Below are positions 2,493 through 47,288 of a DNA stretch of 64,000 nt, piece by piece. Source of the stretch: Protonemura montana (Eukaryota > Arthropoda > Insecta > Plecoptera > Nemouridae). Below the pieces are notes generated by a model that was not told the DNA's origin, did no database searches, and was given only the letters and a program-made list of their open reading frames with translations. A program made the position numbers and the translations under genes. The stretch is from the NCBI GenBank assembly GCA_947568835.1, contig OX387606.1, positions 8,060,001-8,124,000 of the forward strand, given 5' to 3'. Positions within the stretch are counted from its first letter, which is position 1, and the number at the start of each line of letters is the position of its first letter.

Positions 2493-2498
2493 TTGGCA

Positions 2499-9000: not shown

Positions 9001-11305
9001 ACTGGACTTAATATTAGTGGTTTCTGTAAATTTGTAGGCTCTCAGATCCGACCAAAGTATCAGCTGATTTCCCGCACATTTTTACGAGTCGTCGACCACA
9101 CAGTGTTTTTTGATTGTTTTAGTACCAGTTAATTTTGCAAACTTTTTTTGACGTGACTACGTCTTAAAGCACATTATATAGGGAGGCATGTACGGATTTG
9201 CTCTCCAAAATGGCACATGTGTAACAAGCCCTACAGCCTACAGGAAGCTAAGTACAGAGTTTAATGAGGGCTTAATTCTAATGACCCTCAGAGAATTATG
9301 CATGTTTTATATGTTATGTATAATACCTACCCAACTCTGGCTGTGGGTGGTGCAGCCGCTCTTGCCGCTTGCAGAGATGTTTGTTTATTTTCTGATAAAA
9401 ACGCACCATACTCTCTCAGAGTTTTGCAATTCTATTTAACTCCATCTCACCATGATAATAAACACTGTTATTGAATATGCATTGTTTTCCTATTTTAATG
9501 TCTTAACGACGGTCTATTGAGCAAGAGAATAGTGTTTTATGGGGTCATAGAATTTTTTTTAGAGCAAAAAATAAATTAACACCTTTTTTGCAATTTTGTT
9601 TTTTCAATGATTTGCCTCCAAACACAGTTGATCTTTTTAAATTGAAGCTCTCGGATGAAATTGATGAATTGTAGAAGCGATCAAAATTAGAAAGAGATTT
9701 TCTGCAAATTGAATTGATCAGAAGATTGTTTTTATGAGTTTTCTTATCGCAGCTGTTGACTCGTTTGGTCTTGCAGGCTGAGATTTGTAGGCTGTGTTAA
9801 GCTACTTACAGGTATTTATTTTGTGGAACACATACAAATACTGACGTTTTCACCAACCTATTAGCAGCAGGTAACTGAAAATTGGACCACTAGCTTATCT
9901 CAAGATTTTACATTTGAATATGTATTAAATAATTAACTACCGTGATTCTAGACTGAAAAAACAATGCAGAGGACTTTGCTCAAAATGACTAGCTTTTAGG
10001 ATCATGAAACCAAGAGAAGTGATTCTGTCTTGTGTACAAAATAGGTTTTCCTATCTCTAATTATGATTGAATGAGAGTTGAATTACAAAGCAAATAACTT
10101 TGTTTAGCTCAGTGGATTTTTTAAAATTATTTTTGGAGAGATAGTTTAATAACATGTGAGAGTTCAGATTTTGTACTTTGCACACTAACAATCTTTCCGC
10201 AATCTTTCCGGACTCCCGACTATTAGAGCTACCCTGTTACAGCTTCCATCAAGCATGATTGAACAGCACCGACTCAAGTGCGGCGTAGCTCCGACCAACG
10301 AGTCCAATATCAGGAACGGGTCGGCGTATGGAACTCTCAGCTCCCCAGATTCCACCGACAAGCAGATGGCTGCACTCATTTCCAAGGTAGCCGGCTATCC
10401 GTACCTTGTCGTCCTAAGTTTTAAGTAGACTAACTCTTGAGGATGTTTTTTTCAGTTAAAACTATCTTCATGAAAAATATTGACTGACGTCGCTGACATT
10501 TTGTGTGTTGAATATAATTCTGTATTTCTCGCGGATTACCCGCAGTTCTGACAGCTTTACTCTTAATCATCTTTATTAATGCTTTTCTCAATGATGAATA
10601 CATTATACGCATCCATATTTTGAATCATACTATTCTATTTTAAAATTCTGTTAAAAAAGATAGCCGCAAATGCTATCGTGTTGCCACAAGTGTTAGTGGC
10701 TCTAACTCCGACTTGCTATAAAACCAATGACTATGCCAAAATTTTCAATGGGCGACGTTACATCTGCATTGCCGGGTACTGTTCCAGTACTTCTTAAAGC
10801 TGTAGATAAAGTCGAAAGTAACATAGCCAAATAATAGGCAACAAAAAGCATAGGCAATGAAAAGGCAACTTTTCTTGCAAAATCCAATAAGCACCATGCT
10901 TATCGATAGCACCATAGCATCGATATTTTGAACCAAACTCTCTTAATATCTTGGAATTTTATTTGGCTTCCTCATTTTACTCGTGATAATTGCATTGTTT
11001 ACTCAGTAGATTTTCTCCAAACCTAATCTCTATATCTATCTGTCTATCCAACCGTTAAGCACACTGTTCCAACATCATACTTTGTGGATGTCAAACACTT
11101 CCATAATCGTTCCTCTTGCTTTCAGGTGGCACAGCTAAACGAAAACCACGTGAAACTGCACACTGACGTGAAATTTGTGCGTAAACTGCAATGGGTCATT
11201 ACATTGTTAGTGCTGCTGTTTGGTGTGGCTATTCTCTACATCGTGAAGGTTGAAATTCTGCATAATCAGAAACCTAGTGGCCAGTGCTATACCAATGATA
11301 TGTAA
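6019..11305 (+). CDS. MOSPD2: MOSPD2, CRAL-TRIO and MSP domain ER tether (copy 1)
   Basis: There are nine coding exons: 6019-6094, 6256-6402, 6510-6687, 6797-6960, 7067-7351, 7513-7625, 8456-8653, 10243-10386 and 11126-11305, all with GT-AG introns and consistent phases. They give 494 aa (human 518). The order of parts matches the family. First is an N-terminal CRAL-TRIO-N helix bundle (NNDWLRRFLLHHD), then a CRAL-TRIO lipid-binding domain (ISIFFDMADTGLSNMD, LVFEMPWILN). An MSP domain is split over exons 6-7 (LTLTNIGDK-like SITLTNIGDK, then FRVRPSSGTLQMG), followed by a family-typical IEQHRLKC element in exon 8. A C-terminal transmembrane anchor (WVITLLVLLFGVAILYIV) ends in a short tail. Known role: it anchors in the ER and uses the MSP domain to bind FFAT motifs, tethering ER to endosomes, mitochondria and lipid droplets. 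Intron 7 (about 1.6 kb) contains a SINE relic. The protein is identical to copy 2 as read. Confidence 0.93.
8666..8905 (-). repeat. Truncated 5S-derived SINE relic (copy 1)
   Basis: The stretch from the TGATTGATTGATT tail rightward matches the body of the full-length SINE at 45101-45533 in the same (minus) orientation: GGTTGAACGACACACTATTTTGACA, then a GTGGATGATGGTGAGCCTAA block, a GCACATAGCCTTCTGCTGTC block, and a TCGAAGG block. The 5S-derived head is missing. It lies in MOSPD2 intron 7, with the tail starting only 12 nt after the exon 7 donor. Confidence 0.75.
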
Positions 11306-11673
11306 TGTCAAAACTCCCATCTGTCATTCTTAATGGACATTGTAGTGGCTCTGACAAGCATTTCATTATCTAGTTAATTCATTTTTGTTTAATTTCCAGT
11401 ATCTTACCAAAAACATTCATTTGTCTTCACATCACAAAATTATATTTATAGGTATATTTATGGTTGAAAGCCCATTACATTCCACAAATTTAATACTTAA
11501 TAGGTTAGAATACTGAGGTATTCCTATTTTTATATTTGCTTTTTATTAATTAACTACTTAGTTAGTAAAAAATATGGATGATAATGTAACTTGAATACCA
11601 AATAGGCAACCAAAATGTGTGTGTATCCTAAAATTTGTTAAGTTGAGGCCTAATGGTGGTACCGTTCTAAATT

Positions 11674-11679
11674 AATAAA
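11674..11679 (+). terminator. MOSPD2 copy 1 poly(A) signal
   Basis: AATAAA lies 369 nt after the MOSPD2 stop codon, in an AT-rich trailer, about 110 bp before the duplication junction. It is the most likely cleavage signal, although earlier AT-rich variants cannot be excluded. Confidence 0.5.
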
Positions 11680-11783
11680 TACATGTTATTGGTGGAGCTG
11701 AAATCCATTGTAATGGGATACATTCCTTTTTTAATTATTTTGTCTTTTATTCTATTAGGACAACAATGGAAAGATGGATTGAC

Positions 11784-11800
11784 GGCAGTTGGCAGTAGTG
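11784..11800 (+). other. Tandem duplication junction with filler
   Basis: Unit 1 ends in GACGGCAGTT (11781-11790) and unit 2 starts with GTAGTG at 11795. The bases between them (GGCA, 11791-11794) match neither the left flank of unit 1 nor the right flank of unit 2. Together with the next GT they repeat GGCAGT, which occurs at 11784-11789, so the filler looks copied from 7 nt away. Confidence 0.7.
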
Positions 11801-11982
11801 TAGTTAATTATGTTAAGCGATGAGCGTGAGTGCGTTTGTGTCACGTTTAAAAACTGAAACGAATATCAGAAGAGCAAGTAGTTTTAACGTGTTATTTATT
11901 TATTTTAGCAATGCGTTTTGTTTGTTGAGTTACATTTTTGGTTTTGTAGATAGGAGGTAGCAGCGTAGGTAGCAGCTTGGCA

Positions 11983-14900
11983 ATGTTTACTTCCATGAAA
12001 AATGACAAAGAACAATTGTTTAATGTGAAAAAGCAGCCACTGAAAAGAATCGAAATACCTATCAGAAAATTTAACGATGTAGCCGTTCCTCACCATGTCG
12101 ACCTTCTCCGGCAACACAAGACCAATATCGAGAAGGTAGGAAGTAGGAACTAACATAACATTCTATAACAATGAACTTTATCGACGAAAAACCAAGAAAA
12201 TTGGTTAACGAGTGCAACAGGTATTTTTGTGCCATTGCATATGATTTAAGCCATACTGTGAGATTTTAAGAATATAACGTTAAGGTATTTAAACTTATCT
12301 AACTCTAGCACTAGTTGTTTTCATAACTCACTTGTGTTTTATTCAGTTATTTATATCTCAGTTTGGAAGCACGCCTAAGTACTTGTACTTGAATTGAAGC
12401 TCAATTTTCTTGCATATCTCAAATTTAATCTTTTTTGTAACTAGTTTCAGAGACGAGGACAATGGACGCAAGTTCACCGAGAGCAGATCAACGCTACGCG
12501 TCTAATCAAACAGTTAAAGTCTCTCCTTGCTGAAATGGAAATACTACGTAGCCAAGTTGTTGACACCGATCTGCTGCTTTTCGACAAACTTATTTCTCAA
12601 ACGTGTCAAAACGCTCAAAACGCTATCAAAGAGTATTTGAATCTTAATCCCCAACGGCTAATCATGCCAACGTGGAATGAAGACACGTTTACTGATAGTC
12701 ATACAAATGCCGAAGGGAATGTCGAGTTGAATAGCATTGGGGACAAAGAAAATATTAGCAAAAGAATTTTAAAAGATTTGACTGTGGATGCCTTAGAATT
12801 AGAAAAGCAAGAAGAGTGCCTTAAATCGTGGGATAGTTTGCAGTCTGAAGTTCAAGACATTCATCAATTATTTGTGGATTTTGCAAGAGTTGTTGATGTA
12901 AGTATCCAAGGTCCACAAGGAAACTGTTTTTTTAACTACAATAGACTGTGTATTTCACTACAATAAATGTCATCATTCCTCTGCCTTCTTCCATAAAAAA
13001 GTGACGGTTTGGGAAGGGCCCCGATTTTTTTATGGATACTGCCTTGCAGATGCCAAATGTATCTGCTAGATGGCTTCTCTTTCGTGGCCAATGGGAATAC
13101 GGTATCCCACGTTTAAAATTTCTGTGTAACTTTATTGAGATATATATTTTCGACTGTGAAAAGGTATAGTCGTTTAGCTGTGTGTTTGGGGATTGCTTAG
13201 AAACTGGAAACTGCTTAATTGACCGACCCTCGTGTTGACGGTTAACGTTTATTTGGGCAGATGGTGCGCGTCATGAAATTTTGCCGCAATAAATGTGTGA
13301 ATTTGTTTCATATTCTTCCATTTCTGTTCAAACAAGGATTTTGATGGTTGATGTGAGTTCTAAATTCTTTACTTATTACTGCTCAGTTGTTCACAGTCGC
13401 TGATTTGACTTCATATTCAAAGTATGATATATTTTGTGAAAGTAAATTTGGTAAATGCTTTATTTCTATATTTTGATTTTTTTCTTTTCTAAAGTAGATT
13501 TCTATCAAGTAGGATTTCGATAACCCTCGGGAAATGGAGAAACCTCTTGAATACTTATATGCACCTCCTGATGACGATGAAAAATCATGTGTGGAAGTTG
13601 ATAATTCTGCAAAGCTCACAGTATCAGTATCAGTATTCCAGACAGATACTACAGTATCTACAGAGTATCTGTGGGAAGTATACATCCTACTAGTTTATTT
13701 TACAGTTCTGCTCAGTATTTAAAAATATATTTATTTTCAACCAATTTTTCAATAGAAATAGAATATTATTCCCCAAATTAAAAATTAAAATCTTGCCAAA
13801 AATAATTTAACCACAAAAGGGTCAAAATAGCAAATGCATTAGGAGCTTTTGTGGGGTACCATTAAAGCTCCTTAAGTGCGGGTTCGTCAAATAATGTGGA
13901 GCAAATTAATAAACAAAAGTTACTAGCCACATTCTAGATGACTGAAAATCTGTTCCACACAAATAAAAATTCAGCGCACGGTCTAAATTTCTTTTGTGTG
14001 TTAGTATTTTTGGTTATCAAAGTTATCAGATCTCTAATAATTGAACACCATAGGTTCATTTTGAACTTGCCAGCACTTCAGAGATGAAAATTGCCTTACG
14101 GAAAACTCGGCAATTTGTATCCCTATACCGTCACTGTCTGTGATTCTGAAATTGATCAAAATTTCAAAATCCTTCAAACTAGCTATTCATTCATCTTACT
14201 TGGTCTCTACCCCACTCTCTACCTTCCTTTCATTCTTTCTTTTTAACTAACAGTCTGCTAGAGACACTAATAAGTACCTAAACATTTGGTTTTATTACTT
14301 TAGGAGCAAAAAGAGAGCGTAGACCAAATTGAATCAAACGTTGAAACAACTGCCGAGAATGTTGCAGAAGGTGTGTCCCACTTACGACTAGTGAAAACTG
14401 CAATGTATCCGATTGCCGGTGCGGTGATCGGAGGATGCTTGGGCGGTCCGATCGGTCTGATGGCTGGTATGAAGCTGGGAGGGCTTGCTGCGATCGGCTG
14501 TGGAATGATTGGTGAGATTATGCGTGATATTACAGGCGAATAAGTTGTTAAAAACATAGCTGTAGCACAGCAGCATTAGCTGTTGCATGTTTCTAACATG
14601 AACAAAACAAGATTCTGGATTAATTTTATTATTAACAACACTATAACCATCTCAAAAATTGATGCCCAAACGCGGACTCGGACTCCTTGAAGAACTGTCA
14701 TTCTCATCAAATACACTAGAATCGTCTCAAAAAGCCAGTGTCCAAATAGCTCAATGATTCAGAGCAACACCCGCGATAGGTAGAGATCGGGGTTCGAGTC
14801 CGCGTTTGGGCATCAATTTTTGAGACGGTTATAGTATTGTTAATAATAAAATACCCCGCGCATTGCAAGCGTTTGCAATTTAAATAAGATTTCACCCTGA

Positions 14901-15093
14901 TTCTGGATTAATATTTTGTATTTTATTTTTATACAATTGGTGTTTTATTTTACTTATAGGTTTCACTGGTGGAAAGTTCCTGAAGAAGAAGAAAGAAGAA
15001 GAACTCGAAAATCTTGACACTGAACTCTCCAACCTTCGGCAAACACGAGCCAACATAAAAGGCTCTATATCCCTGCCTTACATCCCACAATGA
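11983..15093 (+). CDS. STX17: Syntaxin-17, autophagosomal Qa-SNARE (copy 2)
   Basis: There are four coding exons: 11983-12135, 12451-12897, 14304-14511 and 14960-15093, again 313 aa with all splice sites, the SNARE 0-layer Gln and the glycine-zipper double membrane segment intact. Relative to copy 1 the reading differs by Thr to Ala in the NTQNAIKEYL stretch and Ile to Val in EGNIELNS, both conservative. Only about 190 bp separate its ATG from the duplication junction. Its upstream sequence is the 3' end of MOSPD2 copy 1, not the E-box-bearing region in front of copy 1. It may therefore use a minimal promoter inside those 190 bp, read-through from MOSPD2, or be poorly expressed. No disabling change is seen. 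Confidence 0.92.
14626..14849 (+). repeat. Foldback tRNA-derived SINE in STX17 intron 3 (copy 2)
   Basis: This is the duplicate of the element at 5141-5364, with the tRNA-like unit at 14739-14812. It shows the same paired acceptor arms, A-box-like and B-box sequences and inverted arms. It came with the segmental duplication and is not an independent insertion. Confidence 0.8.
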
Positions 15094-15503
15094 CAATTCT
15101 TTGTTGTGACAACCTTGACTCTGCCGATTAGTTGAATGTAACCCATTATTTTATTAAATATTTTTCATTAATCTGTTTTTTGATGAGATGTATTCTTACC
15201 TTCAAAGCCCGTAATTGGACATTTTAATGATAGTTATGATGCATAATTTGAACCTTGGATCTGATTTGAAAAATAGTGGGCTCGCTTTCCCATTGGCTGA
15301 GCACGGCCGCCATTGACAGTTGGTTGGTTCTCTAAAATACCGCTAGGCTGCCCGGTTCGCTGAAAACCGAATGGAAACTACATCGAAAGTCAGGCAACAT
15401 GAATACATTTGGAGGGTTTGGTTATCGGTGACATTTTCATCAGGACCGCTAATTGGTAGAAATTCTATCATTAACCTTCGAAAGAAAAAATAAGTCTGTA
15501 AAA

Positions 15504-18500
15504 ATGGAACCCACAGATCAGCAAATTGACGCTGTGAGGAGTCAGTTTCTTGAAAAATTTGAAAGTGCAGGTGATGCAGGTATGTGCTTGCCCTTTAATT
15601 CTGCCCTTACGATTCTAGGCTCATGTATATAGTATGTACCATTCCAGTGCAAGACATTTTCTTATCACGCCCTGTGACTGAATGTCTTTTTACCATGCAG
15701 TCTGGAGTCTTACTATGCAAGTTAATTTTTTGTTTCTTAGGCTTATTTCATCCTGCCGACATAGCTCGAATCAAGAACAACAACGACTGGCTACGACGAT
15801 TCCTTCTCCACCACGATTTAGATATAAATAATGCCACAGCTATGGTATGGGATACATGTGAATGGCGAAAATCATTTGGCACTAATGGTAATCACAGCTT
15901 TCTTTGCTATACCATAAACTCCAATTACATGTACAATCAGTGGTATGGAACCTAACTACTATCTTATCTTTAATATTTTGTTCTTTTTCTGCAGAAATTT
16001 CAGAAAATAATGTCAAGAGAGAGTATTTGGAGGAGGGCAATATGTTTGTCCACAACAGGGATGTCGATGGTAAAAGTTTGCTGATTATGAAATCAAAAAA
16101 ACATATTAAAGGTCAGAAAAATATGGAAGATTTGAAAAGAGTCACAGTTTATTGGTTTGAAAGAATCGAACGGTAAGCGTGTTAGATAGCCATTATCGTG
16201 TTACAAGAAAGTTGTAGCTCATATTAACATTTGAAATTGTAGATTTGTGAGCCAGATACAAAAAGTATTTTTTTGTTTTAGAATGGATAAAGGTGGTCAA
16301 ATAAGTATATTTTTTGACATGGCTGACACTGGACTATCAAATATGGACATGGAGTACACCAAATATTTAATCAACCTTTTCAAAGCATACTACCCAGATT
16401 TTTTAAACTACATCTTGGTATTTGAAATGCCATGGATTCTAAATGGTAGGTGGATTTTGTTTACCATGGAAAAAACATCAAATTTCTATTAATTTTTAAA
16501 TATATTTTTAAAAATCGTGTTACCTAACAATGAAACTATGTTTGTTTTCAGCTGCATTTAAGATAATAAAAACGTGGCTTCCTGCAAAGGCTGTTCAAAA
16601 AATCAAATTTGTGTCGAAATCAAATCTGAAAGAATTTGTGACACCTGATCAAATGCTTACTTGCTGGGGAGGTCAAGATGACTTTGAGTTTACATTCATC
16701 CCGGAGGAGAGACTTCAAACCAGCGATGACATTAAGAAAAAAGTTCATTTTGCCGTAGGATCCCCAATGGTGGAAACATTCCCTTCTCTTGGTGAAACTA
16801 GTGGCATTACGGACGACTCAGCTAAAACCGTTCTGAGTATGTTATTTCTTCTTAAGTAATTGTTTTTATTAATTAAGTAAATAGAAGCTTCAAGGTCCAA
16901 GCAGAGACAAGCTTTCTTTTGTTGTATATGTATTGTTTGGAATGGAATGGTGACACCATCCTATCTCATAGTAAATATAAATCTGTTTTTTTTATAGGTT
17001 CATCTCTTAGCATTGTTCCCAATGATACTATCAATTTTATCAATGATGGTACAGAGTTGACTGGCAGCATTACCCTCACAAACATTGGAGATAAGATCAT
17101 ATCTTACAAGGTAAGTAGATACTTGGCACATAATTAATTCAAAACAAATGCCACGATTTGCCCCATTTAATTGTCTTTAATTATTTCTTATTTGTGATCA
17201 TCTTATTTTCATTCTTAAACTTATGAATCTACTGAACTTCTCAGATACTTGTAATAAATACTCATATACTCTTATTAAGTCGGGGCATTGATGATATTTG
17301 CAGACTTGTTATAGTTGACATGGATTGAAAGCTTGCACTAAGGGCAGTGTATCGAAGGATGTTCAATCTCAAGTAGTAAACAAAATCTCTGTGGCTTCTA
17401 GCCTGGGGCTTGTGGATTGTGTTCGGTTTTCTTGGGTGGTTGGTTAACTTACGCCGGAGACCATATAGGGTTTTCTTCCTGTTTACAACGCTGATAATTT
17501 AGAACCTCACAAATTACTAACACTATTAAAAAATCGTAATTGGATATTATTAGCAGAGCATTTTCTTCTGTGTTCCTATCACCTTTAGTTTTCAAAATAA
17601 AAAATGTTGACAATTTTTTGCAAAAAGTTATATTTTATTAAGCCCCTTGAAACCCAGATTTCTTGCAATTTTTCTCTTTAAGAAAATGACACTGACAACG
17701 ATATAAAAACGAGTTTGTCAGGTAGATTCTTATGTATATATCTGATTGGGTATACATTTTTGAGAAGCTAGAAGTGCTTACAGTGTTCAAAGATAGATGC
17801 CAATTATACCACAGAATTGCAAAACTCCAACATAGCAACATTATATGATATGATATGACATCATATTCATATGCTATGACCAAGAGTAATACATAGAATT
17901 AGCAAACATGTTAATATACAATTAACATGGTGTGATGCAGGTGAAGACCACTTCCCCGGAGAAGTTCCGTGTGCGCCCGAGCAGCGGGACGCTCCAGATG
18001 GGCGCCAACGTAACAATCAATGTGCAGCTCCAGCCCGGCTACATGATGCCGGCGTTAACACGTGACAAGTTCCTGGTGCTCCAACTGCCGCTGCCAGGTC
18101 CTGGCATGACCACTGCCGAAATTGCTGACCTATGGAAGGTGAGGGAAAAATGATTGATTGATTATTGGGGTTGAACGACACACTATTTTGACATCTGGCC
18201 ATTTGGCACTGGTTGTCGGTAAATGAGTGGATGATGGTGAGCCTAACCTAGATGTGACCTAGAGTGTAACCTGGTACTGGCACATAGCCTTCTGCTGTCA
18301 AAGCTCAGGGGGCCACCAGCTTAATGTCGCTTTCGAAGGACGGTACAACACGAACAATAGGATTCCTGTACTACCATGCAGTCGAAGGCCAGCTTAGGGG
18401 ATCCTGGTGAAATTTAAGTTAGTCTAGATCTAAGTTTGGGGGCTGAAGGGAAGTAAGTGGGCTTGAGGTGACCAATGGCACCGTAACTGGACTTAATATT

Positions 18501-20798
18501 AGTGGTTTCTGTAAATTTGTAGGCTCTCAGATCCGACCAAAGTATCAGCTGATTTCCCGCACATTTTTACGAGTCGTCGACCACACAGTGTTTTTTTATT
18601 GTTTTAGTACCAGTTAATTTTGCAAACTTTTTTTGACGTGACTACGTCTTAAAGCACATTATATAGGGAGGCATGTACGGATTTGCTCTCCAAAATGGCA
18701 CATGTGTAACAAGCCCTACAGCCTACAGGAAGCTAAGTACAGAGTTTAATGAGGGCTTAATTCTAATGACCCTCAGAGAATTATGCATGTTTTATATGTT
18801 ATGAACTTATGTATAATACCTACCCAACTCTGGCTGTGGGTGGTGCAGCCGCTCTTGCCGCTTGCAGAGATGTTTGTTTATTTTCTGATAAAAACGCACC
18901 ATACTCTCTCAGAGTTTTGCAATTCTATTTAACTCCATCTCACCATGATAATAAACACTGTTATTGAATATGCATTGTTTTCCTATTTTAATGTCTTAAC
19001 GACGGTCTATTGAGCAAGAGAATAGTGTTTTATGGGGTCATAGAATTTTTTTTAGAGCAAAAAATAAATTAACACCTTTTTTGCAATTTTGTTTTTTCAA
19101 TGATTTGCCTCCAAACACAGTTGATCTTTTTAAATTGAAGCTCTCGGATGAAATTGATGAATTGTAGAAGCGATCAAAATTAGAAAGAGATTTTCTGCAA
19201 ATTGAATTGATCAGAAGATTGTTTTTATGAGTTTTCTTATCGCAGCTGTTGACTCGTTTGGTCTTGCAGGCTGAGATTTGTAGGCTGTGTTAAGCTACTT
19301 ACAGGTATTTATTTTGTGGAACACATACAAATACTGACGTTTTCACCAGCCTATTAGCAGCAGGTAACTGAAAATTGGACCACTAGCTTATCTCAAGATT
19401 TTACATTTGAATATGTATTAAATAATTAACTACCGTGATTCTAGACTGAAAAAACAATGCAGAGGACTTTGCTCAGAATGACTAGCTTTTAGGATCATGA
19501 AACCAAGAGAAGTGATTCTGTCTTGTGTACAAAATAGGTTTTCCTATCTCTAATTATGATTGAATGAGAGTTGAATTACAAAGCAAATAACTTTGTTTAG
19601 CTCAGTGGATTTTTTAAAATTATTTTTGGAGAGATAGTTTAATAACATGTGAGAGTTCAGATTTTGTACTTTGCACACTAACAATCTTTCCGCAATCTTT
19701 CCGGACTCCCGACTATTAGAGCTACCCTGTTACAGCTTCCATCAAGCATGATTGAACAGCACCGACTCAAGTGCGGCGTAGCTCCGACCAACGAGTCCAA
19801 TATCAGGAACGGGTCGGCGTATGGAACTCTCAGCTCCCCAGATTCCACCGACAAGCAGATGGCTGCACTCATTTCCAAGGTAGCCGGCTATCCGTACCTT
19901 GTCGTCCTAAGTTTTAAGTAGACTAACTCTTGAGGATGTTTTTTTCAGTTAAAACTATCTTCATGAAAAATATTGACTGACGTCGCTGACATTTTGTGTG
20001 TTGAATATAATTCTGTATTTCTCGCGGATTACCCGCAGTTCTGACAGCTTTACTCTTAATCATCTTTATTAATGCTTTTCTCAATGATGAATACATTATA
20101 CGCATCCATATTTTGAATCATACTATTCTATTTTAAAGTTCTGTTAAAAAAGATAGCCGCAAATGCTATCGTGTTGCCACAAGTGTTAGTGGCTCTAACT
20201 CCGACTTGCTATAAAACCAATGACTATGCCAAAATTTTCAATGGGCGACGTTACATCTGCATTGCCGGGTACTGTTCCAGTACTTCTTAAAGCTGTAGAT
20301 AAAGTCGAAAGTAACATAGCCAAATAATAGGCAACAAAAAGCATAGGCAATGAAAAGGCAACTTTTCTTGCAAAATCCAATAAGCACCATGCTTATCGAT
20401 AGCACCATAGCATCGATATTTTGAACCAAACTCTCTTAATATCTTGGAATTTTATTTGGCTTCCTCATTTTACTCGTGATAATTGCATTGTTTACTCAGT
20501 AGATTTTCTCCAAACCTAATCTCTATATCTATCTGTCTATCCAACCGTTAAGCACACTGTTCCAACATCATACTTTGTGGATGTCAAACACTTCCATAAT
20601 CGTTCCTCTTGCTTTCAGGTGGCACAGCTAAACGAAAACCACGTGAAACTGCACACTGACGTGAAATTTGTGCGTAAACTGCAATGGGTCATTACATTGT
20701 TAGTGCTGCTGTTTGGTGTGGCTATTCTCTACATCGTGAAGGTTGAAATTCTGCATAATCAGAAACCTAGTGGCCAGTGCTATACCAATGATATGTAA
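15504..20798 (+). CDS. MOSPD2: MOSPD2, CRAL-TRIO and MSP domain ER tether (copy 2)
   Basis: There are nine coding exons: 15504-15579, 15741-15887, 15995-16172, 16282-16445, 16552-16836, 16998-17110, 17941-18138, 19736-19879 and 20619-20798, giving 494 aa. The coding sequence reads the same as copy 1: CRAL-TRIO-N, CRAL-TRIO, MSP split over exons 6-7, the IEQHRLKC element, and a C-terminal anchor. The local promoter block upstream of 15504 is duplicated too, so this copy has the same proximal regulatory sequence as copy 1. CTCF follows 2.5 kb downstream on the same strand. Differences from copy 1 are confined to introns: an 8-nt insertion in intron 7 and scattered single bases. Confidence 0.92.
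18151..18390 (-). repeat. Truncated 5S-derived SINE relic (copy 2)
   Basis: Duplicate of the relic at 8666-8905, inside intron 7 of MOSPD2 copy 2 and directly after the exon 7 donor. It is a passenger of the segmental duplication. Confidence 0.75.
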
Positions 20799-21166
20799 TG
20801 TCAAAACTCCCATCTGTCATTCTTAATGGACATTGTAGTGGCTCTGACAAGCATTTCATTATCTAGTTAATTCATTTTTGTTTAATTTCCAGTATCTTAC
20901 CAAAAACATTCATTTGTCTTCACATCACAAAATTATATTTATAGGTATATTTATGGTTGAAAGCCCATTACATTCCACAAATTTAATACTTAATAGGTTA
21001 GAATACTGAGGTATTCCTATTTTTATATTTGCTTTTTATTAATTAACTACTTAGTTAGTAAAAAATATGGATGATAATGTAACTTGAATACCAAATAGGC
21101 AACCAAAATGTGTGTGTATCCTAAAATTTGTTAAGTTGAGGCCTAATGGTGGTACCGTTCTAAATT

Positions 21167-21172
21167 AATAAA
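21167..21172 (+). terminator. MOSPD2 copy 2 poly(A) signal
   Basis: AATAAA lies 369 nt after the stop codon, the exact counterpart of 11674-11679. Confidence 0.5.
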
Positions 21173-21539
21173 TACATGTTATTGGTGGAGCTGAAATCCA
21201 TTGTAATGGGATACATTCCTTTTTTAATTATTTTGTCTTTTATTCTATTAGGACAACAATGGAAAGATGGATTGACGGCAGTTTGCTTCATAAGTGTTAC
21301 AAAATTTTCATAAAAACAAATTTATATCAGATCTTGTAGCTATGAGTTGCTGTTGCTATGCAACTTCATGGGTCATACATATAGCTTTTTTTTGCTGAAC
21401 CATTTGACATTTTCTTTCGTTTTTTTCTATTCCAATCTTTTCGTTTTGCGTTAAGCTGTATTTGGTCCTTAACATCCTTAGATGTTTTATCAACTCATTC
21501 GTTTCTTGCCTGGAGAGGAGCACCGTATTTGCGCCAATC

Positions 21540-23349: not shown

Positions 23350-26300
23350 ATGAGTTCTGCCAAAGCGAAGAAGGCCGCTGCGGCTGCTGCTGCCGCAGCC
23401 GCTGCTGCAGGTAAGACTATCTTATGCTGATTTCGAGTGTTGCTCTAATGGGCACTTGATGTAACCAACAGAAATTGACACTAGTTAAAAAGTTCCCTGA
23501 TCCAGAATGTTTCTTTGTGGTTCTAAAATGATAGCCAAATGATAAATAAAGATTAGTTTGAATTCAGTTACTGTTAAGAGTATGTATGTTGGTCCCAATC
23601 CAAAACTTACTGGACTTAGTATGACTATGCTGGAAAAGTCTGCTGGAAGGTGCTGGACTCAATTCATCGTCTTTTTTGTTTCCTGTAGACAAAGTCTGTT
23701 GAACAAGACCGACCATCACAAAACTGTTGCTAGTAAATATATGTGACTAGATATGTAAATAGATGCAGTAGAGCAAACAACACACCTGTTTAATAAGTAT
23801 CTAGTGCTGTAGAAGTTAAACCCGTGGCTCGTTTAGTTTCCTGTAGCAAAAAATCACTCAAATCAAAATCTGCGATTGGAATATGATATGAGCACTTTTT
23901 CCCAACGAAGCGATAATGTGATTATTGCCGGGAAAATGATCACAGAAAGTGTCCCTTTCTTTTTGAGGAGAGAAACCTATGGTTATTCAGAGTACCTGCC
24001 TGCAACTTTGTGTGTGATATTTAATAAGGGCCAGATTCTTCTACTCTCTAATCATAGGAGTGTTTTTTTTTAATCTTTTAGAAGAAGAGGAAGAAGCTGA
24101 TATAGAATCTCAAGGAACGCTAGCTGCAGTGAACATCAAAATGGAGGGACACGAAAATCCGGAGACAATAACAGACATCCAAAACTACCTTGCCAGGTTT
24201 AATAAAGAAATTCAAGGTGGTGAGGTTCAACATGTAACAGGTAATTGTTCTTGGTCTCTTAACAAAACTGCAATGCTATTTTATGTTCATGCCATAATCT
24301 TGCGATTGTTTCTCCGTAGTTCAACAAGTAGTGACCGATGGGCAGGAAGAGGATGGCGGCACTTATTTTGTCGACCAGTCCGGTCACTATTACTACCAAG
24401 CGAGTTCCGACCAGCAACCAGTCATGACTGTAGTATCAGGTAGGTCTAAGAACACTATTTTTTTTTTTCGGAATAATTCGAATTATAGCAAGTGCTCTGT
24501 AATCAGGTGATCTTTTTACAGTTTTGGATGAGGTACCTATTCTTTAGGTTTGGGTTCACTTAAATCCGATACTATGATTGACGTAAAATGGTAAATTTTT
24601 TGTCACAATTCAATTTCATGAATCTAAGAGTAAAGGCAAGATCTTACTGTTTTCTTATTTTTCTTATTAAGTTCTTATAATTCTTACCCAAAACTCAAAA
24701 AATATATGGCGTTGGGAAGCACCAATCTTCATTTTCCCACACCAAATATACAGCCTTTTGGTACTAAAACCAGATGTTCAAGTTTTCATTGAGAAACCCT
24801 AATTTTAACTTGAATTAGGCTCTTCAGAGTCACTGGTTTGCAATACCAATTTGAAGTATTCCTAATGTGCGTAAAAATACCTTCCACTCTTGTTAATCGT
24901 TTGGGAATTAATATTTTTTAGGAATGAATGATGAAAATGAAGACATGGAAGGAGATTCTGAGACTCAATATATTGCAATGGAGCCACAGGATGAGATGAT
25001 GGAAGAGCAAATTACCATGGAGACATCTGACGAGGTAAGCACCGTTATTATATATTTTTTTTCTTTACTGAGAGAGTGAAGCACTTGCCAGGCTGGAGGG
25101 TCTTTCCCTGGACACAAATCAATTTGGCTAACAAAATAATGTGCAAAACCCTCTTCAGTCTTCAGAAGATGCCATATAAGAAAACCTTTTTAGTTTCTGA
25201 AATACAGTATTTCATGTTTCTCTACTCCTTTTTGGGGCCGAAAAACTCATCAAAACAGAGCAACACCGCAAAACACATATCCAACAACATTTCTGAAAAC
25301 TTATCCCAAATCTTCATGACAATTTTTTTTCCAGGGGGAGATAGTGACGGGGGATCAAGGGCAAATGATCCTAAACTCCAACGACGCCTACCAAACGGTT
25401 ACAATAGTTCCCTCTGAGGATAATCCCGGTGAAGTAAGCTACGTGCTAATTGTACAGCAGCCCGATGATGACAAAGAAGATAAGAGCGAGGATCAGGATC
25501 TTACTGTGTATGATTTCGATGAAGGAGAGGAGCAAATTAATAATGCAGTGGTATGTATAGTACTTGCAGATGCTTGTCATTATGGTTTGGTAATTGGGTA
25601 AGGGGAAGAAGAATTTAATTACCGAACTTACCGAGAGAAGCAAAGAGATGGTAGTATGCTGCGGTTGATTTATGGTAGGCTTAAACCATCATATTGACCC
25701 TCTTGGTAGATTCTCCTTCCCTTTATTCCTCTTATGTCACAATACACAACATGACAAAAACTTTTTAAACTTGGTTTTGAATGCTAAGTAAAGAACAATT
25801 AAATTTTCCATTGATTTGTAACTTGTACAGTGATACTTTATCAAGGGTGAAAACAGTCCTGAACATTTTCTGATAACAGAAGAACCACAAAATATTAAAA
25901 CAATTACCTAGTTCATACATCCTAAATGCAACTAAAATTACAAAAGTCAACGATAGTTTTTGAATGATTTTAGTTTGATGCATTTAAGAATCCTGAACCA
26001 GGTAATTGGTGGTTCTTTTGTTATTATCAGGACTGCTCTAACTCTTGATAAAGTAACAGGTACTAGTTACAAAATGCTGCAAAATTTAGTTGTTCTTCAT
26101 TAAGCATTAAAACTCCAGTTTAAATAGTTATTTTCAAAACTAGTGTTAAGGTTAGATAAAGTAGACATGAGTCTAAAAACCATAATAATACACAACATAG
26201 TTTGGTGTATGGTGTGTTATTTGTATTGTTTGTATTGTTTGATTTTTAGGAGTCAGGTGATGAAGATGACAAGACAAAGATCATCAAGATCGTACCAAAG

Positions 26301-29300
26301 AAGTCACAGACTGTTACTCAAGCTCATATGTGTAATTATTGTAATTACACAAGCCCAAAAAGGTAAGAAAGTCACTGACAGTTTTGAAACTAATTGTTTA
26401 CAGAACAATAATTGCAGATGTTCATGCAGACACGGATTCATAATTTCAATGGGGGGGTGTAAGTTTTGAGTTTTTTCACTCAAATTTAGAGTCAGTTCAA
26501 ATCTTTTCTCTCAAAGCCTCTTGGATAACTTTGTTCTAAAATTTGCTCTATACTCCAATTTTTCTAAGAAGGTAATTTTCCTTGGCAACTTTAAAAACAA
26601 AAAAACTTTCAAGCTTATGAAATTCAATGATAGATTCAACTTTTGGTAGCCATGGAGATGCTTAGAATGCCTGACAGAGCATCTAAAAATTACCTTCTTA
26701 TTCTACAGGGACTATATGCAAAGCCCTTCTACGTGATCAAATTGGCAGTGACAATTGTCGTGTTGTTGTTTGCAAAGCACAAGTAAAATTTTGATTTCTT
26801 TGTTTGGCTAGGTATTTATTGTCTCGCCACATGAAATCGCACTCAGAGGAGCGACCACACAAGTGTAGTGTGTGTGAAAGAGGCTTCAAAACGCTAGCAT
26901 CTCTACAAAATCATGTAAACACCCACACAGGCACGAAACCCCACCGCTGTAAATTCTGTGACAGCGCTTTCACCACCTCAGGTATGTAGAGATATGCTCC
27001 TCAGTCTCAACTAGTTGCATAGTTACTTTATAAACTATTTGCCTAGTTTCATTTTAAGTACCAGAACCGCTTGGTATTTTTTTCTTTCGTGTGTATTTTA
27101 ATTTTTAAATGAAATTGAAAATTAGGACAATTTATTGAATTTGTCTTCTTTGATACATTGACTGAAGGTGGGTTTTCATCACTGGCAGAACTTCTGTTGC
27201 TGGCAACAATATGCATCAAAATATACATTCTTGACTTTGATGTTCATTGTTGTCGCATGGGATCTTGGTCAATATGGTTAGTCCACTCTAGGCCAACAAT
27301 TAAATTTGTATCACAGTAAGAATCCACCTTCATGAGTAAGTTGCTATGGGAACAGTTTTTTTTTAAACAGGTATTTTGCCATGAAAAGTAGATCTTAAAT
27401 TGATCGAAACTCCTACAGAGGTTTCCTAAAATCCCTAGAAAGACTTAATAGGTTCCTTAGTAATATGTGTAAGTAACAAGAAATGAGTGTAACATGTAAT
27501 TTGTGTGTAGGTAACCAGTAATTGCATGCATATTCCATTAAAGAACTTATTTTTTATTTTAGTTATTTCTAGTTACTACTTTTAGATACCTCTACGATTG
27601 TGTCTTAGTATAACGATGTTTAACTTCCCTTGTTGAAAATTACCGCTTAATTTCTCGTAATTTCCTGTTTGAATGACATCAAGAGTCTTAGTGTTACAAT
27701 CTATTTCGCACAATGTCTTTGCATATTAATCAGGTCTACCTGCCTTCTAAAATGCATTGCCAGCTTTTCTTCAATGTAAATCCCTGATTCACATACTATA
27801 AACTTTCTGTTGTGCCTCAAAAAAACTTTTTATATATTCTTGGTTAAATTGTTGTGTGGTGCACGTACCGAATATCTCAGTAGGCCTGCCGATGCAAATC
27901 TGACTTCCGACACCAAGGCTCGGTGACATTCACAATTTTGAAATTTTTCCAATCCTTGAAAGTTCACCTTTTATTTTTTTTATGATTTTTTGTCCCGTAG
28001 TGTGAACGCTTTTTTTCTTTTATCAACTAACAGAAATTCTGTAGCTTACGTCTCCGTCAATAAGTTGAATGTGCGCGAAATTGCGTGCAGACCCTCCTGC
28101 CCCCAATTTCTATTTAACCGTTGAATCTTTAAGAATCCCGAAGTTCACGCGAAGGCTTCTATTGTAAAACATGTTGCCTTTGGTGTCTTCCGCAGGTGAG
28201 CTTGTCAGACATGTTCGGTACAGGCATACACACGAGAAACCACATAAATGTTCAGAATGCGAATATTCGAGCGTGGAAATGAGTAAATTGAAGCGCCATG
28301 TCAGAAGTCACACTGGCGAGCGACCTTACCAGGTGAGCTGAACAAAACGCAAGTCATAAATTAGCGCTCCGGTCTTTGGTTGTTTGGACAGGCGAGTTGG
28401 TGAGGCATGTCCGCTACAAGCACACCCACGAGAAGCCGCACAAGTGTACGGTTTGTGAGTACGCGAGTGTCGAGCTGAGCAAGATGCGGAACCATATGCG
28501 GTGCCACACGGGCGAGCGCCCGTACCAGGCAAGCGAAACCGCAAGCGTGCCGAAGCCTCCTTAACTTGCCTCGTCCGGAATCCTTGGGGAATCAGATTTG
28601 GACGATTCATTCGAATAGCTTTAGTGATGTAGTTGTGTGAGAATATCCCTGTAGGCGTCGTTGTTAGCTTGCTGTCATTGTTTTACACAGGATCTCTCCA
28701 CTGTCCTTAAAGAGGGGGTTTCCCCACTTGACTGATACAATTAATTGCTGTATGCCCTCAAGAAACTGAGACAATTGGCAATCATTTTCAAGTAAATATC
28801 TTCAAGCAAGTCAGCAAGTGGTAGTTTCAGTAGTACTAGTAATTCAGTAAAGTTGCTATTTTAAGATGGTTCCAAATTATATAATGTTCCTCCATTTACT
28901 TTTATTTCATGCTTTATCTAAAGCCATTTAAAAAGTACTTGTATTTCTCAGCTGAAAGGTGACAATTTTTATTTTTTATTATTTTGTTATTATTTGCCAG
29001 ATCATTTTTATAAAGTCTCCTTGAATATGATGTTTTTTTTATACATTTGATGAAAATATTTTGTTAAAAAATTAGTGGATAAAAATATTGGAGCTCTATT
29101 AACCTCCCAAACATTGGCACCCAACTGGGGACCAAGTCTTGACCCTGTGCAAATATCAAAAGATCAAGTTTATAACCTACCGATTACAGAAATGCTTACG
29201 TTGTTAACTAATGATTCCTTTGTGGTTAGTGTCCGCACTGCACGTATGCCAGCCCCGACACGTTCAAACTGAAGCGGCATCTGCGGATCCATACCGGAGA

Positions 29301-32300
29301 GAAGCCGTACGAGTGCGACATCTGTCACGCCCGCTTCACCCAGTCCAACAGTCTCAAGGCACACAAACTGATACACAGTGGTGAGTTGCTAGCACCTGTT
29401 ACGTCTTGTCAGGAATTGGCACGTAGAGAATCGTGGTACCTGCATATAAAGTTGAGTTAGTCCATTGGAAATTGTTATCTGGCATCGTCGTTCATACTTC
29501 AGTTGTAGGCTGTAAGATTATTGAGCAGTTTTTGCTTATTCTTTTAATGTAAACTGGCAATGCAGCAATCAATATTCTTACCAAATATAAGCATCGTAAA
29601 AGGCAAATTCAATTTAATTGATTGTATTTTTTGTAGACATCAATGACTGGTGGCACTATCTTTAACCAGTGCATTTCACAAAATCATTCACTATGTTTAT
29701 AACATAAAAAACAAAAATCGGGGCAGATAACATAGTGTCAGGTGCCAAATGCACCATTTACTCAGGACACAACCATTGACAGTTTCATGTGTTGCTCTGA
29801 CTTAGTCGGCGACAAACCCGTGTTCCATTGTGAGCTGTGTCCGACGACCTGCGGCCGCAAAACCGACCTACGCATCCACGTCCAGAAACTGCACACGTCG
29901 GACAAGCCGCTCAAGTGCCGCCGCTGCGGCAAATCCTTCCCCGACCGGTACACGTACAAGATACACAACAAGTCGCACGAGGGCGAGAAGTGCTTCAAGT
30001 GTGACTTGTGTCCGTACGCGTCCATCTCCCAGCGGCACCTAGAGTCGCACATGCTCATACACACCGACCAGAAGCCGTACCAGTGCGACCAGTGCGATCA
30101 GGTAAACTTCACGTCCTGTGGTAGAATTTTTGTAATATCAAGAAAGCTGTTGTCTCTATATACTAGGACAGGCGTGTATAGTTTTGACTTTGTGAGTGGA
30201 ATCTACAGTGGCTACGCAGAGCGTGAGGTCAAGTGCCAGAGCTCTATTTTTCCAGCTTTTAACTTAACTAAGGCTCTATACTTGTCTCTTCTTCACTAAA
30301 GTAAAGGAATTACGATCTTGACAGCCTGCAGTCGATTCAAGCAGTAATCACAACTTGTTTTTAAAGATTAAAGCCAGATTCAACAGAGCACTGAAAAAAG
30401 TCAGCGAGCTGGTCAGCTAACCACTTACTCCTTCCTCCGCAGTCATTCCGTCAGAAACAGCTGCTGCGCCGCCACCAGAACCTCTACCACAACCCAACGT
30501 ACGTGCCCCCGCCGCCTCGCGAGAAGACGCACGAGTGTCCCGAATGTCAGCGAGCGTTCCGCCACAAGGGCAACCTCATTCGGCACATGGCCGTGCATGA
30601 CCCGGAATCATCGGTGCAGGAGAAGGCACTAGCACTCAAGCTGGGTCGGCAAAAGAAAATACAGATCATCGACGGCCAACAGGTGCGCATGACAGGGACG
30701 TGAATTTGCGGCGATTTCGCATTGTTCAATCTTATACGTTATAGGCACTAGTTGTGAGTATTTGAATGAAGTTGAAAGGAAACTACTGCTATGAAAGTAA
30801 AAAGGATGTCAAAGAGAAATGGTCCCATACTACAATGTTCCCAAGGTACCTTAATTTACCCACCTAGCAAATTCCATGGTTTATAATCCACAGAAGGGTC
30901 ACTGACAGAAAGATCTTAAGTGGTGTGCTGTGTTGTTTTTAGGTGTCAAAATAGGGAGCCTAAAACTGCCTTATTACTGAGACTAGAACTTTAAGAAGTG
31001 TATGCCTTTTCTTTCTAATAATTGACACAACTTTGATAAGAAGTTAAGTTAGATTTTAGAAGCATGGGTAAGTAAATTTGGGAAGAAGCGAAGGGGACTC
31101 AACTTGCCGAAAAATTCAGCTAATTGCTTTGACACAGAGTGTATGTACTTAAGAATGAAGAGAACCCAGTGGAGCAAGATCTTATTTAATATTGTTAGTT
31201 ACTAGTGTTTTTATTAAGAACCCAGGAGAGTTCCATAACCTAATATTCACCAGCTCTTGTCTTGTTCAGTTGGTTTGGGTGCAGGTAATCCCACCAAACT
31301 AAACCCATTTGGACCTCAGTAAAACCGGCAAAACTAGGATCGTAGCCTGATGTGCTAACCCTTTTGCTCAGGTGGAGGTAATGGCAGGCGACGACGAGGA
31401 TGAGGACGAAGATGAGGACACGGACGTCGAGATGATGGCGGTCGATGGACAGGATGGGCAGCAGTACGTGGTGCTCGAAGTGATCCAGCTGCAGGAGGGC
31501 GAGGATGGCGAGCAGCTTACGGTGATGACCGGCGAGGGCCTCGAAGGCGTCACGCTCGGCGACAGTGACGACGAGATGCTTGCCGGGCAGCATATCACGC
31601 CCGACTCGCGTGAGTAGTCTCCTTGGCTCGGGGTTTTCGTCTTGACATTTACTGGAGAGTTTTGGAGACGATCGCGCGCATAATTAGTGAACAAAGCTTG
31701 GTTGCCTGTTGCCAAGCAGGGTGAAGGGTTGCTTGTGTTATTATTTTCATCGACCCCTGGATACTAAACCTCTTCATTTTTACTGAATCTTAATTTTTTT
31801 GGAAAAATTATACTAATATTCTGCCCTCAAGTAATGGGTAATTATGGTTTGTCACTGTTAAATTTTTTACTTATATTAGAATCTTGTAATTTCTTTTTCA
31901 GACCTGACAGATGATGAGGAAGTCATCCAGGCCCTGAGAAATAGTCGAAGACTGTCGAAGAAAGACGCCTCTGCCATGCGGAAACAAATGGAGTCTGAGA
32001 AAGACATGCAGACCTGCTTCGGTTTTGACGTAAGTTTTTACAGAGATAGGAGAGCTTGTTATGGGGTCACTTCGTGGTTGCTCTTTGCACGCTGGTTTTC
32101 TGTTCCTCTAGCTTCTCTCCAAAGCAATTGATAGTTGCCATCTGGAGGGAATGTCTGTTGTCCTCGATCCTATTCCTGAAATGCTCCCGAACTGCATGAC
32201 AGCCAAGACTATCCAGGTGGTGGAGAAGGGGAAACTCACCACCTTGTTCCTGATGCATGTTTTACCGTCTCGGGAAGCCAAGGTAGCGAATAGCAAAGCT

Positions 32301-32684
32301 GGTGCATGGCAAACGTTGCCTAATAAGTAATAAGCACTGTTCACCCGAATATAACCCGACCTCGAATACTTAACTTTGAATGAGAATTAAACTCGACCTC
32401 GAGCGCAATTATATTTTGCCAAAAAAAAATATGTGTTTTAGGATAAAAAATCTTGTTATATTTGGGCTTATGCTGTCATTAATTAACATAAACAACAACT
32501 GATAATATCTTCATCCTACCCCTTGTGGTTACACGAAGTGGTTTTAACAATTATCTTTGTTGCACAGGACGACGTTGAAGATGTTGAAGCAGATGAAGAG
32601 GAGGAGGAGGAGGAGGAGGAAGAGGAAGATGAGGAAGAAACAGCCAAGTCAACTATACATATTCTAGACTCTATTCAAGAATAG
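23350..32684 (+). CDS. CTCF: CTCF, 11-zinc-finger insulator/architectural protein
   Basis: Coding exons are 23350-23410, 24082-24240, 24320-24439, 24922-25034, 25335-25550, 26250-26362, 26812-26981, then 28196-28332 or 28392-28528, 29230-29380, 29806-30101, 30443-30682, 31372-31609, 31902-32029 and 32568-32684. With one alternative exon the product is 752 aa. It opens with MSSAKAKK and twelve alanines. A long acidic N-terminal region follows, containing [11 protein letters not shown] (25503-25535), the cohesin-binding YDF motif of animal CTCF. Eleven C2H2 fingers run from the MCNYC finger (exon 6/7) to the CPECQRAF finger; the GELVRH...HTHEKPHKC segment and [11 protein letters not shown] are diagnostic. 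A very acidic C terminus ends in ILDSIQE. Known role: nuclear DNA-binding protein that sets chromatin loop and insulator boundaries with cohesin. All phases close with GT-AG introns except a GC donor after 28528. Poly(A) signals follow at 33332-33364. Confidence 0.95.
28196..28332 (+). other. CTCF: CTCF alternative exon 8A (fingers 3-4)
   Basis: The 137-nt exon is flanked by TCTTCCGCAG and GTGAGC. It enters in phase 1 and leaves in phase 0. It encodes the end of finger 3 and all of finger 4, whose helix reads [10 protein letters not shown]: Glu at -1, Ser at +2, Lys at +3, Arg at +6. This matches the vertebrate CTCF finger 4 helix (SVEVSKLKRH), so 8A looks like the ancestral version. Codon usage is more AT-rich than that of exon 8B. 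Confidence 0.9.
28392..28528 (+). other. CTCF: CTCF alternative exon 8B (fingers 3-4)
   Basis: The 137-nt exon, 59 nt after exon 8A, has the same length and phases and differs at 10 of 46 residues. All zinc ligands are intact. The finger 4 helix reads [10 protein letters not shown], so +6 is Asn in place of Arg and +5 is Arg in place of Lys; the tail [11 protein letters not shown] resembles the insect finger 4 tail. The acceptor is TTGTTTGGACAG and the donor is CAG|GCAAGC, a non-canonical but functional GC type. Synonymous divergence from 8A is high (8B is GC-rich), so the exon duplication is old and both copies have been kept open. Confidence 0.85.
28529..29229 (+). other. CTCF intron between exons 8B and 9
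   Basis: AT-rich intron sequence. The acceptor for exon 9, CCTTTGTGGTTAG, has a weak pyrimidine tract. An open frame from 29075 runs into exon 9 in the wrong phase and is not coding. Confidence 0.6.
32112..32282 (+). other. CTCF: Candidate CTCF cassette exon in last intron
   Basis: A strong acceptor (GGTTTTCTGTTCCTCTAG) precedes 171 nt with no stop, followed by GCCAAG|GTAGCG. The previous exon ends in phase 0 and the final exon starts in phase 0, so inclusion would add 57 residues (starting [20 protein letters not shown]) without shifting frame. If the donor is not used, the frame runs on to a stop at 32328-32330, giving an alternative C terminus of 72 residues. I do not recognise the peptide as a CTCF part, and an antisense open frame also exists, so it could instead be a repeat or gene fragment. 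Confidence 0.35.
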
Positions 32685-33331
32685 TGTGGTGAAAATATGA
32701 AGAAAGTTCAAAGTCAACTCTTTCTTTTGTGAAATTGGTTGAAAAATAGTGGCTAGTGAGAATATGTGAATCTTCAATTGAATCTGGACTATAGTTTCAA
32801 GTAGCCAGGCAGAGGGTTCAGCCACAGATGTAGCTTACTGAGTTATACCAACCTTGGGGGCATGGCCCGTGGAAGAAATTACTACTAGTTCTAGTTTAGA
32901 AATCTGCCGCAGAAGTGCGTTAGGTTTGCAATCATAAGGCTCAGGTAAATTGTATATAACACCATTTGTTGGAAGAAGTCCAAACTCTTGTAGCCTATAA
33001 TAGGTGAGGTAAATGCCCCAAAACTTTGCAGACATGCCCCAAGGTTTTGCATAGCAATTTTAAAAGAGGTTGTAATATCTGTGTAAGCTACATCATTGGT
33101 TCAGCTATATTTTCTATTCTAAATTCTAATAACAACTACTGAGAACTACTTCAAAACGATGGACATTTTAGTTATTAAGATGTAAATAAAATCTAGAGAC
33201 TGTCTGGCCTTATTCCAAGCCACGACTAGCTTTAAGAGTGAGCTGGAAATTTGTCTAGGTAAATAATTCCCAATTGTATATATATGTTTAGTTTTAAAAA
33301 ACTACAAAACAGTTTACCAACTACCTAGTTA

Positions 33332-47029: not shown

Positions 47030-47189
47030 ACACTAATAACCTCTCAAAAATCGATGCCCAAACGAGGAATCGAACCCCGATCTCCACTGGTCGCGGGTTT
47101 TGCTCTAACCAATTGAGCTTCTTGGACACATCATTTTTGAGAGAATTTTAGTGTATTTGATGAGAATGACGCATCTCCAAGGAGTAAAA
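47030..47189 (-). repeat. tRNA-derived SINE
   Basis: On the minus strand a leader (TCATTCTCATCAAATACACTA) precedes a tRNA-like unit at 47055-47128. The arms TGTCCAA and TTGGGCA pair over 7 bp; there is a D arm GCTCAATTGGTTAGAGC and a T arm CGGGGTTCGATTCCTCG with a perfect B box. The anticodon arm does not fold, which separates it from a true tRNA gene. It is the same family as the foldback elements in STX17 intron 3. Confidence 0.8.
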
Positions 47190-47288
47190 CCACGAGGCTG
47201 TGAATAGTGAATACTCACAGTCACTTTGATTCTAGTAACGCTATACCACCTCACAACCATTTAATCTCAGTAACTCCAATTTTTTTCA

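Follow-up and report, generated by a model that had tools for sequence, protein, structure and literature searches.

CTCF is the principal protein by which animal chromosomes are folded into loops. The fingers with which it reads DNA are among the most conserved parts of the protein, and chromatin and methylation, or else a paralogous gene, are regarded as the main means by which its choice of sites is altered. In TCF3 (E2A), exons 18A and 18B encode the bHLH region. The two are spliced either-or, yielding E12 and E47 (PMC12585103), and thus resemble the exons described here in being an exclusive choice within a transcription factor gene, but in another gene and another fold. In FOXP1, the mutually exclusive exons 18 and 18b (FOXP1-ES) exchange residues in the DNA-binding domain, which alters the motif that the factor prefers (PMC11701043). 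The FOXP1 exchange concerns the forkhead domain of a vertebrate factor, whereas the pair reported below lies in one of the 11 fingers of an arthropod CTCF and is known from sequence alone; as in FOXP1, a DNA-contacting position is changed in frame, from R351 to N351.

CTCF itself is known to vary in other ways. Human CTCF-s is an alternative isoform with an altered finger array and a motif 2 bp shorter, but it arises by skipping of exons 3 and 4, lacks the N-terminus and 2.5 fingers, and involves no exon swap (PMC6449404). A correspondence between the intron before our exon 8 and the human exon 4/5 boundary was considered and dropped, as that report suggests a human boundary a few residues earlier. 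Vertebrates have two proteins with 11-finger arrays, CTCF and CTCFL (BORIS), made from two genes and not from two exons, and one CTCF has been reported in each of Daphnia and Drosophila (PMC2889900). The vertebrate finger region is spread over seven exons, whereas in the CTCF of Drosophila and Trichinella, members of the same protein family, the whole region is described as lying on one large exon (PMC2749850). With the fingers on a single exon, a pair of the kind reported here could not exist in Drosophila or Trichinella, and a lack of such a pair in flies would be explained.

The preliminary description of this locus knew of no comparable switch in CTCF, and in the open-licence literature that we searched mutually exclusive exons were likewise not described for any CTCF gene. 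By term counts, CTCF is absent from the main text of three papers on duplicated or exclusive exons (PMC9013439, PMC9741552 and PMC7954323). The available portion of a review deals with CTCF as a splicing regulator of other genes and does not contain the terms CTCF isoform or CTCF-s (PMC8373115), and the accessible text of a 110-species survey, which recovered CTCF in 105 transcript sets, mentions no such isoform (PMC5094011). On our best reading, an either-or exon pair is new for CTCF, and its kind is already known.

We analysed a stretch of 64,000 nucleotides (the window) that contains the complete coding region of a CTCF gene on its plus strand. The gene model, built from splice sites and the open frame, comprises exons 1–14, with exon 8 present in two versions, 8A and 8B. 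Exons 1–7 (23350–23410, 24082–24240, 24320–24439, 24922–25034, 25335–25550, 26250–26362 and 26812–26981) end within finger 3 at a phase-1 donor. Exons 9–14 (29230–29380, 29806–30101, 30443–30682, 31372–31609, 31902–32029 and 32568–32685, stop included) are entered in phase 0 and encode fingers 5–11 and the C-terminus. With either version of exon 8, the product is a protein of 752 residues with 11 C2H2 fingers, counted by motif. The best PDB match of the finger region is human CTCF (E 3.4e-108, query residues 2–312). Intron 13 also holds an open stretch of 171 nt (32112–32282), a multiple of three, flanked by splice-like borders; it is possibly an extra CTCF cassette exon, or a product of chance.

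Exon 8A (28196–28332, plus strand) codes for the remainder of finger 3 and for finger 4 with its canonical helix, and is followed by a GT donor (CAG/gtgagc). Exon 8B (28392–28528, plus strand) encodes an alternative finger 4 with zinc ligands present, and is followed by a GC donor (CAG/gcaagc). The two lie side by side, separated by an intron of 59 nt (28333–28391, plus strand). They had been described as homologous exons of 137 nt with a phase-1 entry and a phase-0 exit, and on recomputation this holds to the base. When combined with exons 1–7 and 9–14, either 8A alone or 8B alone leaves the 752-residue frame open. By contrast, joining 8A to 8B leads to a stop at codon 367 (GCG AGT TGG TGA, the protein ending in PYQASW), and leaving out both leads to a stop at codon 377, as expected from the frame breaks claimed previously. 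A forced choice of exactly one exon, as that description claimed, is shown by these frames and is strengthened by the geometry of the 59-nt intron. Judged by reading frame, the pair is genuine, and the sequence itself forces the choice of one exon or the other.

The likeness of the two exons is not due to chance, since tblastn within the window aligned 8A and 8B at 78% identity over all 46 residues, against at most 57% over 28 residues for the pair and any other CTCF finger. With E values up to 10, a tblastn search of the window for further copies of exon 8 returned nothing beyond 8A and 8B themselves, other CTCF fingers, and weak matches of short length. A DNA repeat finder did not report the two exons as a separate family, consistent with heavy silent divergence, and grouped both only with exon 7 in a 39-nt finger-linker family. 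None of 48 pattern matches in bacterial or archaeal contigs and of 14 in viral contigs encodes a relative, as expected of such collections. An origin of the pair as a haplotype or assembly artefact was rejected because 28 of 46 third codon positions differ, and capture of 8B as a finger from another protein was rejected because its best stretch is finger 4 of CTCF.

Comparison of the exons base by base reveals how this divergence is distributed. They share 36 of 46 amino acids and 95 of 137 nucleotides, with identical bases at 36, 42 and 18 of 46 sites for codon positions 1, 2 and 3, respectively; only 14 of 92 sites differ at positions 1 and 2 together. Where the two encode the same residue, 24 of 36 codons differ, as do 10 of the 11 shared fourfold sites, bearing out an earlier assertion of strong silent divergence between two exons long held open. 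The NG86 method gives a dN of 0.134, and dS was not computable. That 36 of 46 residues are common to both exons, despite the differences at third positions and fourfold sites, supports selection at the protein level, under which 8A and 8B were both kept as protein for a long time. The corresponding constraint test compares two sequences only, and relies on a simple simulation without a fitted model, in which neutral change was placed entirely on the 8B side (eight settings with 2,000 runs each, 16,000 in total). The observed number of third-position differences was reached in 1,112 runs, and none of these 1,112 had 14 or fewer differences at positions 1 and 2. At t = 0.6 and above, 0 of 12,000 runs yielded at most 10 amino-acid changes and no stop.

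The same simulation bears on whether 8B could be a disused or rarely used duplicate heading to decay, with its frame a relic. We regard this as very improbable, as none of the neutral runs with enough silent change kept positions 1 and 2 so conserved, and as 8B contains no stop and retains its zinc ligands and the AG of its acceptor. The GC donor and a predicted mask over the acceptor, described below, would suit a decaying exon. A short and recent neutral spell would be compatible with the simulation, which puts all change on 8B: at its lowest setting (t = 0.3) 1.7–1.8% of runs passed with at most 10 amino-acid changes and no stop, these settings producing about 8 third-position changes on average.

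Base composition changes abruptly within the pair. The GC content of third codon positions (GC3) is 0.32–0.51 in exons 1–8A, 0.87 in 8B, 0.74–0.86 in exons 9–12, 0.60 in exon 13 and 0.38 in exon 14, and whole-intron GC is 0.31–0.36 in introns 4–7 and 0.36–0.41 in introns 8–13. The GC3 step could be a trace of a fusion of CTCF copies, or of different exon histories. In the first case, two diverged tandem copies would have fused, the 5' copy providing the gene up to 8A and the 3' copy providing 8B onward, so that the silent divergence would predate the pair. Such a fusion is improbable in our estimation, even though GC3 steps up exactly between 8A and 8B while intron GC stays nearly flat: GC3 drops again in exons 13 and 14, CpG loss contributes to the low upstream GC3 in the 5' part (though not in 8A, where the observed/expected CpG ratio is 1.08), and no second CTCF is found among the genome matches listed. 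Observed/expected CpG is 0.23–0.32 in introns 4–6, 0.71 in intron 7 and 0.39–0.72 in introns 8–13, compared with 0.91 for the window, and 500-nt windows from 27.5 to 32.5 kb range from 0.65 to 1.13. Over 24500–27500, the depletion of CpG has the look of former gene-body methylation in the 5' part of the gene that stops shortly before the exon pair. We dropped the idea that a methylation boundary caused the GC3 step, because the CpG change falls before 8A and not between 8A and 8B.

The genome search for a second CTCF covered 258 Mb in 34 contigs and gave 231 matches, with 125 of 960 first-look candidates scored. Among the matches listed, four are the window's own CTCF exons (85–98% identical), all others are at most 44% identical, and exon 8 itself is absent. 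Dense clusters of C2H2 zinc-finger matches, again among those listed, lie on contigs C1 (19.78–19.84 Mb), C15 (3.26–3.41 Mb) and C13 (15.6–16.7 Mb), and the cluster on C15 contains repeated matches of equal score.

The short intron between 8A and 8B suggests how the choice could be enforced. It spans 59 nt, compared with 292–1,214 nt for the remaining introns between exons 4 and 14. Within it, the final A ahead of the terminal ACAG occupies position 31, so that a branch point is predicted no more than 30 nt from the 8A donor. The intron contains no yTnAy motif and only weaker TnA matches. Exclusive choice by steric exclusion is known from OGDH exons 4a/4b and from alpha-tropomyosin, where branch points lie too near the upstream donor; those of OGDH, 25–41 nt away, force the choice, and a limit of about 50 nt has been proposed (PMC7969005). 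OGDH differs in that its intron measures 118–131 nt in birds and mammals and its branch points are far from the acceptor (PMC7969005). Measured against that limit of about 50 nt, which derives from vertebrates, all internal As of the 59-nt intron fall within 30 nt of the 8A donor, although no strong branch-point motif is present. From this geometry we infer that joining of 8A to 8B is predicted to be sterically blocked in the spliceosome.

The splice sites of the two exons are not equivalent. GC donors, such as that of 8B, are often linked to alternative splicing. The pyrimidine content of the 8B acceptor (59%) is not out of line with that of exon 9 (59%) or exon 4 (53%). The 8B 3' splice site together with the first bases of the exon (28386–28406, plus strand) is predicted to pair with an intron-8 element at 28555–28576 (plus strand), which is complementary to it and a candidate masking or docking site. 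The predicted duplex comprises 16 pairs with one mismatch between 28390–28406 and 28555–28571; positions 28386–28389 pair with the element as well, with a probability of 0.49 to 0.99 depending on context. Its energy is -38.0 kcal/mol, compared with a shuffle mean of -26.0 (s.d. 2.9), a value reached by 2 of 3,000 shuffles. The 8B acceptor has a mean unpaired probability of 0.05–0.10, compared with 0.33–0.40 for the 8A acceptor.

This helix, first seen on folding of the region, was then examined in a screen that set each of six splice sites against four stretches of intron (24 tests), in which the pairing of the 8B acceptor was matched by 0 of 200 shuffles for the first 200 nt of intron 8 and by 0 of 60 for the whole intron. 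Next in rank came the exon 9 acceptor, paired with the last part of intron 7 (3 of 200 shuffles). Repeated at three region sizes, the 8B pairing was reached by 0 of 1,500, 1 of 1,000 and 1 of 300 shuffles. Among 1,522 segments across the gene, the strongest partner of the intron-8 element is the 8B acceptor, whereas its pairing with the 8A acceptor is weak (-10.6 kcal/mol). The region as a whole (28140–28600) is no more stable than shuffled sequence (z -0.43; 31 of 100 shuffles fold at least as well). Having been picked out of 24 site-region tests, the predicted helix has modest support. Exclusion by docking and selector sequences of the Dscam type works through competing, conserved pairings by which one exon is exposed; in this gene, a single pairing is seen, with the 8B acceptor only.

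Both exon peptides match finger 4 of CTCF. When 8B is aligned to human CTCF, finger 4 scores highest at 70.0 bits, compared with 30.0 and 29.3 for the next two fingers, and the alignment covers human residues 335–380, from late finger 3 through finger 4. The human stretch matched by 8A is also 335–380; two ZNF568 chains have higher total scores with 8A because they contain many fingers, each of which matches weakly. Both peptides pass the Pfam cut-offs of two C2H2 families (PF13465 and PF23611), 8B by little (43.9 against 40 and 27.2 against 27). AlphaFold models of the single-exon peptides were unusable, with pLDDT values of 53.8 and 54.0; the 8B model has strands and no finger helix. The zinc ligands C19, C22, H35 and H39 (exon peptide numbering) are found in 8A and 8B alike, in line with the report that all are intact. 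At helix positions -1, +3 and +6, the residues are E, K and R in 8A, as in human finger 4, and E, K and N in 8B. From 8A to 8B, position +1 changes from M to L, +4 from L to M, +5 from K to R and +6 from R to N. The +5 and +6 changes agree with those first noted, the Arg-to-Asn exchange at +6 falling on residue 351 (R351 in 8A, N351 in 8B), which aligns with human R368.

In the code by which C2H2 fingers recognize DNA, helix position +6 contacts a base and reads the first base of the triplet. With Asn at this position, a protein containing 8B should lose or change one core G contact. Finger 4 had been placed in the core DNA-reading region of CTCF; in published structures of the human protein, finger 4 sits on a GGC triplet of the core, with K365 on the central G (PMC11275995). 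Taken together, the helix change and these finger-4 contacts (PMC11275995) make it plausible that the 8A and 8B proteins differ in DNA reading. R368C, which affects the human counterpart of the +6 residue, is listed among tumour mutations (PMC6306835).

Among the human mutants tested, finger-4 K365T was closest to wild type in FRAP although the structure loses the central contact (PMC11275995), and a single finger-4 contact may thus alter binding only mildly. The near-wild-type behaviour of K365T (PMC11275995) would also suit a reading in which both exons are used but site choice is not meaningfully changed, the swap instead tuning residence time, stability or contacts with protein or RNA, or the amount of CTCF by way of unproductive transcripts that contain both exons or neither. 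Glu at -1 and Lys at +3 are the same in 8A and 8B, and transcripts with both or neither exon do meet early stops, but three changes stand side by side at helix +4 to +6, and a role in setting CTCF amount, as for a poison exon, is limited because the 59-nt intron makes 8A–8B joining unlikely. We consider this reading rather unlikely.

The explanation that we favour, and judge to be probably correct as a whole, is a mutually exclusive pair that arose by tandem duplication, with a steric block between the exons, 8A as the default, 8B masked, and a shifted set of CTCF sites. Tandem duplication of an exon that spans the last part of finger 3 and the whole of finger 4 would be the simplest origin of 8A and 8B. 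As all likely branch points of the 59-nt intron fall no more than 30 nt from the 8A donor, 8A–8B joining would be blocked, and transcripts with both exons or neither, if formed, would carry an early stop and presumably be degraded. Exon 8A is the likely default, whereas 8B would be held back by its GC donor and by an acceptor masked by the intron-8 element about 165–185 nt downstream. Given such a donor and a maskable acceptor, 8B would be used only where some factor or condition either opened the helix or assisted the donor. Both proteins are likely to be made. In the 8A protein, finger 4 would read GGC, as in vertebrate CTCF. In the 8B protein, Asn at +6 would cause reading of the first G of the triplet to be lost or changed while the other ten fingers remain the same, and so the sites bound by this protein would overlap with those of the 8A protein but form a shifted set.

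More tentatively, this explanation may be extended to a possibility that we put forward with less than even confidence: that one CTCF gene yields two architectural proteins, acting genome-wide and differing only in finger-4 reading (GGC versus another first base), with the choice set by opening of the RNA helix over the 8B acceptor, such that splicing could switch which sites serve as loop anchors or insulators by tissue or stage. If true, the locus would constitute a natural experiment in which one finger is changed and ten are unchanged under the same promoter, and one could ask whether splicing of an architectural protein redraws chromosome domains.

The possibility that CTCF regulates its own gene by way of a CTCF-like site located at the pair was also considered and is unsupported. 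Searching for AGRKGGCRC, which we take to be a CTCF-like site pattern, with one mismatch allowed, gave 54 matches in the window, compared with a shuffle mean of 41.0 (3 of 100 shuffles reach 54). A single match falls in exon 8A, at 28293–28301 on the minus strand and with a mismatch.

Elsewhere in the window, 2301–11790 and 11795–21283 form a 9.5-kb tandem duplication that is 99.6% identical over 9,499 bp and ends just before CTCF. Open frames are common to both copies, each of which includes a tRNA match; the pair may represent a recent duplication or an assembly doubling. Downstream of CTCF, a 5S rRNA gene lies on the plus strand at 47055–47408 with a tRNA match beside it on the minus strand, and a 239-residue open frame on the minus strand at 49919–50638 looks by eye like a UMP-CMP or adenylate kinase.

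Across the genome, (TTAGG)n is abundant, in keeping with an arthropod: it has 7,938 forward and 7,633 reverse matches, compared with 1 and 0 when the pattern is reversed. The mitochondrial genome is contig C34 (15,885 bp). Between its cox1 and cox2 genes lies a stretch that resembles tRNA-Leu(UUR) by eye and was not called by ARAGORN with the bacterial code. ND1, ND4, ND4L and ND5, named by eye from translations, are on the strand opposite to cox1, cob and ND6. We take this gene order to be the pancrustacean arrangement; as read by eye, it points to Pancrustacea and not to the chelicerate or myriapod setting that the preliminary description had implied. A full-length cox1 match on the nuclear contig C4 (C4:5759425-5763762), with a score equal to that of the mitochondrial contig, may reflect either a very recent nuclear insertion or a misassembly.
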